A DNA stretch of 64,000 nucleotides, from positions 2,666,001-2,730,000 of the forward strand of contig NZ_CP017774.1 in assembly GCF_001857965.1 (NCBI RefSeq), given 5' to 3'. The notes under the pieces were generated by a model. That model did not search any database and was not told the DNA's origin. It saw nothing but the letters and a program-made list of their open reading frames with translations. This DNA comes from Flavobacterium commune (GTDB taxonomy: Bacteria > Bacteroidota > Bacteroidia > Flavobacteriales > Flavobacteriaceae). Below, piece after piece: positions 46,453 through 51,179 of the stretch; within the stretch, counting starts at the first letter, position 1, and every line of letters begins with the position of its first letter. A program made the position numbers and the translations under genes.

Positions 46453-47850
46453 ATGGATTCTAAAATAAAAGAAATACACCAACAATTGGTGTCAAAACAA
46501 ATCACTTGTACAGCTTTAGTACAGGAAAAATTAGACTTACTTAAACAAAATACATACAACTCGGTTAATTCTTTATTGGACACTTTGGCTCTGGAATTAG
46601 CGGCTAAAGTAGATACTAAAATTGCAAACGGAGAAACAATCGGTTTGCTGGAAGGAATTCCTTTCGGGATTAAAGATGTATATATGTTGCAGGGAACTTA
46701 CACTACGGCAAGTTCTGAATTGTTGAAAAATTATAAATCGCCTTACACGGCTACCGCTATTCAAAAATTATTGGATGCCGGTGCTATTCCGCTAGTGAAA
46801 GAAAACTGTGACAGTTTTGGTCATGGATCTTCTAGTGAAAACACCATTTTTGGAGCAGTAAAAAATGCAATAAATCCGGAATTAGTTGCAGGTGGTTCCA
46901 GTGGTGGATCAGCGGTTAACGTTGCAAAAGATTACACTGTTTTTTCTATTGGTGGAGATACAGGAGGTTCGATTCGTCAGCCTGCCGGGTACAACCATAT
47001 TTACGGTTTAAAACCAACTTACGGAAGAATTTCAAGATACGGATTGATGGCTTATGCATCTTCTACAGATTGCGTTGGTCCATTGGCAAAATCTATTGAA
47101 GATATCCGAATTGTGTTGAATGTAATGAGCGGGAAAGATCCAAAAGATCAAACTTCAGTCGCTTCAGCGGAAATTAGTGAAGAGGAAATTGCAACTTCTG
47201 CTGTAAAAGCTGTTGGTTATTTTAAAAACTTCATCGAAAGTGATGCCATTGATGCCCAAATAAAAGCTGATTTCTTGGCAAGTATCGAAAAAATAAAAGC
47301 CAAAGGAATTGAAGTAAAGGAATTAGATTTCTTCAAATCCGATATTTTAGTTTCTACCTATTATACTTTGGCTATGGCCGAAACGGCTTCGAATTTATCC
47401 CGTTTGGACGGAACCAATTATGGAAACCGTATCGAAGGAGATAATTTGATTGATTCGTATGCCGTAACGCGTTCTGAAAATTTTTCGGAAGAAACTAAAC
47501 GCAGAATTGTTGGTGGAAACCAGGTGTTGTCTCAGGGATTTTCAGATGAAATCTATTTAAAAGGATTGGCTTTGAGAGATCAGATTTCGGAGAACTTCAG
47601 TAAAGATTTCGAGGAAGTAGATGTGATTTTATCGCCGGTTACACCAAGCACACCTCCAAAAATCGGAGACAGTTTAAAAGATCCGTTGGCGATGTATTTG
47701 TCGGATGCTTATACGGTTGGTTTTAGTTTAGGGCAATTACCAACTTTAACTGTGCCACAAGGAACAAGTACCGGATTGCAAATTACTGCAGCAAAAAATA
47801 ATGATGAATTAGTTATGCAATTTGCTAACTTCTTAAAAGATACACTATAA
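46453..47850 (+). CDS. gatA: Asp-tRNA(Asn)/Glu-tRNA(Gln) amidotransferase subunit A
   Basis: GatA releases ammonia from glutamine for transfer to Asp-tRNA(Asn) or Glu-tRNA(Gln). The 465-residue protein carries the full amidase triad at the spacing of S. aureus GatA (from memory K79/S154/S178): K74 in GIPFGIKDVY, cis-Ser S149 in GGSSGGSAVN and nucleophile S173 in GGDTGGSIRQPAGYN. The C-terminal part (DVILSPVTPSTPPKIG, FSLGQLPTLTVPQG) is typical. It starts one base after gatC and its stop TAA overlaps the ATG of the gatB fusion (ATAATGG junction), so the genes are translationally coupled. Confidence 0.95.
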   Translation: MDSKIKEIHQQLVSKQITCTALVQEKLDLLKQNTYNSVNSLLDTLALELAAKVDTKIANGETIGLLEGIPFGIKDVYMLQGTYTTASSELLKNYKSPYTATAIQKLLDAGAIPLVKENCDSFGHGSSSENTIFGAVKNAINPELVAGGSSGGSAVNVAKDYTVFSIGGDTGGSIRQPAGYNHIYGLKPTYGRISRYGLMAYASSTDCVGPLAKSIEDIRIVLNVMSGKDPKDQTSVASAEISEEEIATSAVKAVGYFKNFIESDAIDAQIKADFLASIEKIKAKGIEVKELDFFKSDILVSTYYTLAMAETASNLSRLDGTNYGNRIEGDNLIDSYAVTRSENFSEETKRRIVGGNQVLSQGFSDEIYLKGLALRDQISENFSKDFEEVDVILSPVTPSTPPKIGDSLKDPLAMYLSDAYTVGFSLGQLPTLTVPQGTSTGLQITAAKNNDELVMQFANFLKDTL

Positions 47851-50800: not shown

Positions 50801-51179
50801 TGGTAAAGAAGAGGAAATCGGAAGCATCATCGCGCAGCAATACGATATAATCCTGAACGGTTACGAAATTGGAGGAGGATCAGTTCGTGCGCATAAATCG
50901 GAAATTCTGGAAGCGACTTATAGAAATATGGGTTACAACAAAGAAGAAATGATTAAGAGTGTAGGGACTATGTATAAAGCTTTCCAATACGGTGCGCCAC
51001 CACACGGAGGAATTGCCTGGGGAATTGACCGTTTAATGATGATTTTAGAGAAAAAAGCATCTATTCGTGAAGTTATGGCTTTCCCGAAAACAGGAACTAG
51101 TGAAGATTTATTATTTGGGGCACCATCGCTTTTATCAGATAAAAAGGTAGAAGAAATGAATGTGAGAATTATTAAATAA
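47850..51179 (+). CDS. Fusion protein: amidotransferase subunit GatB joined to aspartyl-tRNA synthetase
   Basis: One 1109-residue frame holds two complete enzymes. Residues 1 to about 478 are GatB: catalytic start ELVIGLETHVRLNTKTKLFCSC, zinc cysteines C35/C37/C50/C53, TQVHIEEDAAKLMHE, VPLIEIVTEP and the YqeY-like tail DQGKAGILVGKVLGVIGKGANGK. Residues about 478-515 form an Ala/Lys/Glu-rich linker. From about 516 follows class IIb AspRS: OB fold (SGWVASVRDHGELIFIDLRD, His at 547), motif 2 FRDEDSRGDRQPEFTQ, a bacterial GAD insertion (about 790-930) and motif 3 GGIAWGIDRLMM (R1061). The AspRS half would charge tRNA, and GatB would phosphorylate and amidate the product. No stop or frameshift interrupts the join. 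Confidence 0.93.
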   Translation: MELEQLTAALKAHDLELVIGLETHVRLNTKTKLFCSCPNQEIETPNENICSVCTGQMGVLPAINKEAITKAIYFGKAVNSTFSNEVISWDRKHYEYPDNPKNIQITQFHNPIIPDGQVSCYRNDGSQFTVNLTQVHIEEDAAKLMHEKKISLVDFNKAGVPLIEIVTEPCVRNIEDASTYAQYIQRIVQNLGISEANLEKGEFKSDVSVSLRKINSDVLNPRTEIKNLNSFKFMIEALKEEVEKQFNYFIENKEFRPDQTTVLWDADLKQTKTMRKKEFEADYRFISEPDLPFVNIKAEIEAIKVDTSALPYAVESILINGGVLPQDAKFFTADALRSRTFVTLNNEIKDPSFVAKTLANNIKAEDYDKIHNIEHLITIFVLFKAEKITAVLVQNAIAGYLKDQNFDYNKYFADNTISEDKIQEVIATVIAENAAVANDIKAGDQGKAGILVGKVLGVIGKGANGKVIRQIILDKLGAAAVLEKKEAQEKVSKEAIAESKEVQEEALPEIPIVVKDTYRTHKISQLSEANIGEEVMLSGWVASVRDHGELIFIDLRDSSYEIFQVNISRETFPNIDELVKLKPESVISVKGIVVGRNEDDYNAGLRTGKIELETSVLEILNLSKTLPFEIKRAAKTNEAIRFQYKFLDHRNEEVRRAIVNRHKVIKLIRDILDEEEFLEIETPILSAGTDEGAREFIVPTRKQAGLFYTLPQAPQQFKQMLMVSGYEKYFQVARCFRDEDSRGDRQPEFTQLDMELAYASMQQIIDLNTKLFNEVVKKVYGNKWILKPFEVITYKDAMDFYGCDRPDLRYGLKMQDITAIVKDTTFQVFSKPIEEGGIVKCIKVSAQEQGNKRMSKGQIEALTAIAQQHGLGGLAYIIVNEEELQSPIIKFLGEEIAAGIIKATDAQVGDIVFFSAADYATANKALDAVRQELGRMLHLINPKELRPAWVVDFPMFEKTDEGRWTFTHNPFSMPAIYDLKKHMDGKEEEIGSIIAQQYDIILNGYEIGGGSVRAHKSEILEATYRNMGYNKEEMIKSVGTMYKAFQYGAPPHGGIAWGIDRLMMILEKKASIREVMAFPKTGTSEDLLFGAPSLLSDKKVEEMNVRIIK

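Follow-up and report, generated by a model that had tools for sequence, protein, structure and literature searches.

The presumed task of transamidosomes is to prevent mischarged tRNA from getting to the ribosome, but those known so far are complexes that can dissociate, which makes this role hard to isolate. In Pseudomonas aeruginosa, whose Asn-transamidosome we take to be the complex of PDB entry 4WJ3, and in Helicobacter pylori, one aspartyl-tRNA synthetase (AspRS) serves both tRNAs. AsnRS, GlnRS and GatCAB coexist without asparagine synthetases in Deinococcus, Thermus and Bdellovibrio, and the accessible part of a survey of 547 genera places Bacteroidetes among 18 genera with such a gene set, giving a second AspRS, within those 18, only to five Deinococcus-Thermus genera (PMC4206432); tRNA-dependent asparagine synthesis in some Bacteroidetes was, on that portion of the survey, therefore foreseen in print. 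A second AspRS in fused form is not described in the accessible portions of PMC4206432, PMC6523644, PMC9499178, PMC8762117 and PMC9976931. A literature search that covered few subscription journals found no experimental study of a GatB/AspS fusion among the matches listed, and the earlier note on this DNA had likewise known of none. The stretch of Flavobacterium commune DNA analysed here (64,000 nucleotides, the window) encodes such a fusion, which is real, conserved, already named and apparently unstudied.

Domain architecture and gene neighbourhood

The gatB-aspS fusion is a single open frame of 1109 codons encoding 1109 amino acids (47850..51179, on the plus strand, as are all features below). 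Its GatB part comprises the catalytic (kinase/transamidase) domain with four zinc cysteines (PF02934 GatB_N, residues 17-300, 47898..48749) and a YqeY-like, tRNA-binding tail (PF02637 GatB_Yqey, residues 349-476, 48894..49277). A linker at residues about 478-515 (49281..49394) joins the tail to an AspRS composed of an anticodon-binding OB fold that contains His547 (PF01336, residues 535-609, 49452..49676), a class II catalytic core (PF00152, residues 637-1081, 49758..51092) and a GAD insertion domain (PF02938, residues 829-926, 50334..50627). The GAD insertion is a mark of bacterial-type AspRS, and in Pfam and NCBIfam searches the C-terminal half combines it with the class II core and OB fold of that type. 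Against NCBIfam, the fused protein exceeds the cut-offs of two GatB models (NF004012, 398 bits over 338; TIGR00133, 344 bits over 315), scores under each one's own cut-off for four other GatB models, and reaches 709 bits for the AspRS model, whose cut-off is 443. Pfam and NCBIfam confirm the earlier note's reading of one frame holding a complete GatB and a complete bacterial-type AspRS. The YqeY-like tail and GAD insertion that it had listed are likewise confirmed by Pfam, and the four zinc cysteines of its list, Cys35, Cys37, Cys50 and Cys53, are kept together with His24 in all 80 of the named loci described below. No model dedicated to a GatB/AspS fusion was found among the 25 NCBIfam families matched by the window protein.

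The fusion is preceded by gatC (46182..46451, 89 amino acids from an ATG) and by gatA (46453..47850, 465 amino acids), which encodes the amidase signature glutaminase subunit and whose stop shares one base with the gatB start (TAATG). The gatC product scores 22.7 bits with Pfam GatC (cut-off 23) and 23.0 bits with TIGR00135 (cut-off 47.1); its C-terminal half is normal, and its N-terminal half is of a type special to the GatB/AspS fusion family, a similar segment being found in 15 of 16 compared (the sixteenth is a wrong short frame). The gatA product matches Pfam Amidase at 381.8 bits and TIGR00132 at 436.5 bits, below the cut-off of 481, and contains GIKD, GGSSGGSA and GGDTGGS, which we take to be the catalytic motifs of GatA. 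Both partners are encoded beside GatB, though their family scores lie under the NCBIfam cut-offs. In all 80 named loci gatA lies within 200 bases upstream of the fusion, and in 78 a gatC match lies directly 5' of gatA (tblastn, E up to 1); in the other two, which have no gatC match, too little upstream DNA is present. Promoter and terminator scans did no better than on shuffled sequence.

Distribution of the fusion

A protein search returned 3980 relatives, and the best 120 are all of 1109-1112 amino acids with all five domains. Many of these 120, at 91-96% identity, are named bifunctional amidotransferase subunit GatB/aspartate--tRNA ligase AspS by NCBI, the remainder being named after one half alone or unnamed. 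The bifunctional database label that the earlier note had mentioned is a real NCBI protein name, and the fusion is therefore not new. A scan of named genomes yielded 308 stretches encoding a relative, the best 80 of which were kept (the named loci) and fetched by two patterns, one containing the marker histidine discussed below; the fusion is open in all 80. These loci belong mostly to Flavobacteriaceae (Polaribacter, Aquimarina, Lutibacter, Wenyingzhuangia, Algibacter, Flavobacterium and others), and the others are metagenome bins labelled Cytophagales, Chitinophagales, Marinilabiliaceae, Bacteroidales, Tannerella, Dysgonamonadaceae and further groups. In a phylum sample of 395 genomes, with two candidates scored per genome, the fusion was seen in 3, all in the genus, and had therefore looked scarce and restricted to that genus, a view overturned by the many genera of the 80 named loci. 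In a sample of the genus, 29 of 249 genomes carry it, 25 at full length and 4 cut at contig ends. The earlier note had called for a search for the same fusion in other genomes, and it is present in each of these sets: the best 120 relatives, the named loci and the genus sample. No match to the fused protein was found in the viral contigs searched. The sequences of the GatB and AspRS halves point to a shared history, their pairwise distances across 81 proteins having a correlation of 0.92, with none of 999 permutations as high.

tRNA charging and asparagine genes in the genome

The genome is one contig of 3.85 Mb, in which no match to a second GatB was found elsewhere. It also encodes a stand-alone AspRS that is 40% identical to the fused AspRS, a separate AsnRS (596 bits) and a separate GlnRS (751 bits), the latter two above their cut-offs. 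Given the separate AspRS and AsnRS, the fusion is unneeded for charging tRNA-Asn, and given AsnRS and GlnRS, the formation of Asn-tRNA and Gln-tRNA needs no GatCAB here, whereas free asparagine must still come from somewhere. The genome holds no AsnA and no true AsnB: the best AsnB match reaches 188 bits (cut-off 267), and 90 bits against 499 for AsnB proper, and two weaker, partial matches score 57 and 30 bits. Because AsnA and true AsnB are absent, the likely value of the fusion is the making of asparagine. The best match, the protein of locus L014, was considered as an AsnB and rejected as a lasso-cyclase relative, since it matches best the lasso-peptide cyclase model, at 241 bits and under that model's cut-off of 525, and begins MKGFFG, without the Cys2 nucleophile. 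L014 adjoins a gene without Pfam matches.

The tRNA-Asn gene was located by a tRNA family search and ARAGORN. In the ARAGORN sequences of the window's genome, read by eye, tRNA-Asn has U1-A72 and tRNA-Asp has G1-C72; tRNA-Gln likewise has U1-A72. U1-A72 in tRNA-Asn beside G1-C72 in tRNA-Asp is the GatCAB rule given in the accessible parts of PMC9976931 and PMC4206432. A scan of the 80 named loci found no tRNA-Asn within them. The earlier note had described the locus as a covalent transamidosome; the covalent link to a predicted non-discriminating AspRS, the operon and the U1-A72 pair of tRNA-Asn speak in part for this description, but it overlooked the separate AspRS, AsnRS and GlnRS and the absence of AsnA and a true AsnB.

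Near-exclusion of the fusion with AsnB and AsnA in one genus

The fusion, AsnA and AsnB were each searched in the 249 genomes of the genus sample. The AsnB query was verified (719 bits with the AsnB model, whose cut-off is 499) and an AsnB ortholog was counted at E <= 1e-60; the next weaker match, at 9.5e-52, comes from an unfused genome, and among fused genomes the strongest of the weak matches is 6.5e-31. Tallies were made by hand, and genomes absent among the matches listed were placed by elimination. An AsnB ortholog is present in 1 of 29 fused versus 184 of 220 unfused genomes and AsnA in 0 of 29 versus 10 of 220, so that one or the other is found in 194 of the 220 unfused genomes. The sole fused genome with an AsnB ortholog, G463, is 75% complete. 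In the quality subset (completeness of 90% or more, contamination of 5% or less; 210 genomes, with membership decided on rounded values), AsnB or AsnA is present in 0 of 24 fused versus 169 of 186 unfused genomes (Fisher p about 7e-21, a value that ignores kinship). The gene content of these genomes indicates a near-exclusion of the fusion with AsnB and AsnA in one genus. A further 26 of the 249 genomes, 17 of them of high quality, have neither the fusion nor AsnB nor AsnA, and lack of AsnA and AsnB therefore does not force the fusion.

The exclusion between fusion and AsnB rests on few independent switches. Independence was judged on a tree of 61 stand-alone AspRS sequences, taken from 60 hand-picked genus genomes with listed coordinates and one outgroup. 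On this tree the 10 fused genomes need 4 changes, of which well-supported branches force just 1; independent pairs number 1 when just the well-supported branches are used and 4 when all are, with a sign test p = 1 on what is an under-powered single-gene tree.

Specificity markers and active site of the fused AspRS

A residue of the His31 type combined with no lysine at the Gly82 position (P. aeruginosa numbering) is presumably the mark of a non-discriminating AspRS, and mutant work in Pseudomonas reportedly found that these two anticodon-domain positions govern discrimination. The marker positions are not named in the accessible portion of PMC6523644. His547 of the fused AspRS aligns with His31 of the P. 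aeruginosa ND-AspRS; at this position the alignments have His in P. aeruginosa and Leu in Escherichia coli and Thermus thermophilus. The marker His is present in all 80 named loci, a count that is partly by construction because one fetch pattern contains it, and in each of the 30 genus loci of the fusion, which were found with the whole protein. A simple motif search of the proteins longer than 610 amino acids from the relative searches (n = 79, some of them cut) gave His in 76 and Tyr in 1, the motif not being seen in 2. The second marker position of the 80 named loci is occupied by Asp (74), Glu (4), Ala (1) or Ser (1) and never by Lys, whereas both marker positions are Lys in all 61 sequences of the stand-alone enzyme. 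With the marker His and no second-site Lys, the fused AspRS is predicted to be non-discriminating.

At 10 of 12 positions that we take to be Asp- and ATP-site residues (E. coli numbering), the fused AspRS has the E. coli residue in all 80 loci. The other two, which are usually conserved, are altered: Ser193 to Ala in 78 of 80 and His449 to Asn in 80 of 80. Further changes specific to the family are Asp for Pro at residue 690 and Ser for Leu at residue 741. The Ala193 and Asn449 changes are also found in a Peregrinibacteria relative, P0199, and among six Gracilibacteria-like AspRS compared, Asn is present in 6 and Ala in 4.

Origin of the two halves

P0199, from a genome named Candidatus Peregrinibacteria, is the nearest complete separate AspRS among the matches listed (62% identity). 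AspRS-only proteins lie closer, at 69-88% identity, and those examined resemble truncated fusion proteins, their start falling within the linker or the OB fold. The next-nearest AspRS group, at 48-53% identity, includes some members with Trp at invariant Gly sites, and Trp at such sites is what the Gracilibacteria code would give. An AspRS tree of 75 hand-chosen rows, with its root set by hand and flagged for long branches and odd composition, groups 30 fused proteins with P0199 (support 91) and splits these, together with 12 of the 48-53% group, from stand-alone Bacteroidota AspRS (support 100). Four other candidate-phylum-like AspRS, P0238-P0241 (P0238 likewise carries the name Peregrinibacteria), group with the stand-alone enzymes, which speaks against a simple history. 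By these comparisons the AspRS half resembles certain candidate-phylum enzymes (Peregrinibacteria- and Gracilibacteria-like) more than it does the stand-alone AspRS of the host, of which it is probably no duplicate. A Peregrinibacteria source for the GatB half is not supported, the nearest separate GatB proteins, P0309 and P0311, being about 38% identical, compared with 62% for P0199 on the AspRS side. Among the matches listed, and with pieces taken as cut members of the fused family set aside, no complete-looking separate protein is close to the GatB half.

Linker and structure model

The linker comprises 41 residues, between residues 476 and 518 of the fused protein; the earlier note had recognised its presence and put its size at about 38 residues, which is corrected here. 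Between fixed landmarks its length is 35-48 residues in the 80 named loci and the window protein, and 41-53 residues in 30 genus loci. It is the fastest-evolving segment of the fused protein in 121 close relatives, and its sequence varies widely across distant relatives while its length is kept within 35-53 residues. The structure model of the fused protein has a mean pLDDT of 82, with both halves mostly confident, and the linker is disordered in this model, with pLDDT below 50 at residues 478-503. Other stretches below 50 are residues 278-285, 687-693, 699-702, 705-707, 738-745, 1083-1096 and 1102-1109; those within 687-707 and at 738-745 are loops of the AspRS site, and the C-terminus is low as well. 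The GatB tail is modelled as nothing but helices. The pTM is 0.52, and the model therefore says little on the relative placement of the two halves.

Proposed function and alternative explanations

The locus quite probably encodes a tethered Asn-transamidosome, which would supply the cell with asparagine made on tRNA-Asn, in place of AsnA and AsnB. The fused protein would be the B subunit of GatCAB carrying a second, non-discriminating AspRS on its tail. The AspRS half would load aspartate on tRNA-Asn, GatB would activate the Asp side chain, GatA would free ammonia from glutamine, and GatB would amidate the aspartate to give Asn-tRNA-Asn, an amidation in place that would use glutamine and ATP; activation, ammonia release and amidation, in that order, are GatCAB chemistry. 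The particle would probably be a dimer of (GatC, GatA, GatB-AspRS), since bacterial AspRS is a dimer, and covalent tethers, rather than just tRNA, would keep it assembled. Ordinary charging and recycling would fall to the separate AspRS and AsnRS, with AsnRS later reusing free Asn from protein turnover. We infer the mischarging of tRNA-Asn, the quaternary structure and the direct hand-over. If this reading is true, the source of asparagine is explained for some Flavobacterium species that lack AsnA and AsnB, and a metabolic step has been replaced by a translation enzyme. A natural one-chain version would also allow the tether to be cut and the escape of mischarged tRNA to be measured directly.

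A bolder form of this proposal, which we hold only tentatively and regard as rather doubtful, is that the fused AspRS gave up tRNA-Asp and mischarges tRNA-Asn only, that the AspRS half is of Peregrinibacteria- or Gracilibacteria-like origin, and that the fusion has been swapped with AsnB and AsnA. GluRS2 similarly mischarges tRNA-Gln only. If true, the single chain would be a dedicated asparagine synthase with tRNA as its cofactor, from which the wrong intermediate is never released, and fusion, AsnB and AsnA would be interchangeable modules that one genus has swapped.

The AspRS half might instead be an ordinary, discriminating spare copy fused by accident, with GatCAB vestigial or serving another tRNA. 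The presence of GlnRS and AsnRS, by which neither indirect route is required for decoding, and the U1-A72 pair of tRNA-Gln would suit such an accident, which we nevertheless judge improbable, because the Lys found at both markers in 61 of 61 stand-alone enzymes occurs in 0 of 80 and 0 of 30 fused ones, because fusion, gatC-gatA operon and most catalytic positions have been kept across divergent Bacteroidota, and because the fusion is near-exclusive with AsnB and AsnA. We give a similarly small chance to asparagine being made by AsnB-like paralogues, the fusion then doing something else, for instance repairing Asp mischarging or acting in regulation. Of the 29 fused genomes, 17 (that of the window among them) do give weak matches to AsnB-like genes, and some of these genes exceed the cut-off of the broad TIGR01536 model. 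However, no TIGR01536 match better than 3.9e-17 is present in 11 fused genomes other than the window's, the paralogue from genome G404 scores 282 bits against the AsnB cut-off of 499 (a true ortholog scores 719), and the AsnB-like protein of the window's genome lacks the nucleophile, as noted above.

It is less probable still that the cell cleaves the chain to release GatB and AspRS as two proteins, making the tether irrelevant. Such cleavage would fit a disordered linker of drifting sequence and the existence of pieces with GatB or AspRS alone, some of which lie on long contigs (P0249, 865 kb), but the frame is open in the best 120 relatives and in 80 of 80 named loci, linker length is held despite sequence divergence, and most examined pieces (12 AspRS-side, 14 GatB-side) resemble cut or frameshifted members, in that one end lies within the linker or a domain or runs out into foreign letters. 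The exceptions are P0199, P0309 and P0311, which by their look are ordinary separate proteins, and P0245, P0280 and P0296, which are unclassed. An assembly or annotation artefact, in favour of which nothing was found, has next to no likelihood: a frameshift or missed stop at the GatB-AspRS join was considered and rejected, the frame being open in all relatives examined, and many independent genomes hold the fusion, which is therefore not a frameshift or misassembly of this genome alone.

Comparison with known systems

A tethered Asn-transamidosome, the reading preferred here, would share with the P. aeruginosa (4WJ3) and H. pylori Asn-transamidosomes a bacterial-type AspRS with GAD domain and marker His that acts with GatCAB; there, however, AspRS and GatB are separate chains, whereas the window has both in one chain and a second AspRS besides. 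An AspRS covalently joined to an amidotransferase subunit is already modelled by NCBI as PRK12820 / NF009460, but the partner in that family is GatC, apparently placed after AspRS, whereas the partner in the window is GatB, and the window protein is not a member of NF009460 because it scores 469 bits against a cut-off of 1379. The gene set resembles that of Bdellovibrio as given in the accessible part of PMC4206432, with AsnRS, GlnRS and GatCAB and no asparagine synthetase, but Bdellovibrio has a single ND-AspRS in a separate gene, whereas in the window the second AspRS is fused. Thermus and Deinococcus, in the same portion of that source, are alike in having two AspRSs, AsnRS, GlnRS and tRNA-dependent asparagine synthesis; their extra AspRS, however, is archaeal-type and separate, whereas that of the window is bacterial-type and fused to GatB.

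Probable interrupted fusions and the fusion locus

Among relatives of the GatB-AspRS fusion, GatB protein P0261 (515 aa) and AspRS protein P0166 (567 aa) lie on contigs that are both 94,512 bases long. P0261 trails off within the linker and P0166 begins inside the OB fold, which favours a frameshifted fusion over a clean split. Four further members of the fused family (P0249, P0258, P0254 and P0259) are shortened although their contigs are long, between 135 kb and 942 kb; the shortening may come from frameshifts or from errors in sequencing, or the copies may be decaying.

In this family, GatC (encoded at 46182-46451, + strand, of the window) combines a normal C-terminal half with a distinct N-terminal segment, which in the window starts MSKIMTVDILSSIKGA; a similar segment is present in 15 of the 16 relatives compared. 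Adjoining the fusion gene on its downstream side, the interval 51264-52056 (+ strand) contains a gene for a HigB-type toxin (PF09907, 114.9 bits) together with one that is HTH antitoxin-like.

Asparagine routes and AspRS relatives

AsnB, AsnA and the fusion are all absent from 26 of the 249 Flavobacterium genomes sampled, 17 of them of high quality (at least 90% complete, at most 5% contaminated), and these organisms are possibly asparagine auxotrophs or users of another route. L014, from the window's own genome, is a lasso-cyclase-like AsnB relative, and the adjoining gene, which gives no Pfam match, looks HPr-kinase-like by eye, suggesting a possible lasso peptide cluster.

Metagenome proteins L160 and P0136, labelled Lentimicrobium and Chitinophagales, place very close to Flavobacterium proteins and are probably mis-binned. 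In sequence comparison, six AspRS relatives (P0221, P0222, P0223, P0225, P0228 and P0232) carry Trp in place of the Gly found in the other relatives, the pattern expected if UGA encodes Gly and was translated as Trp, as a Gracilibacteria-type code would produce.
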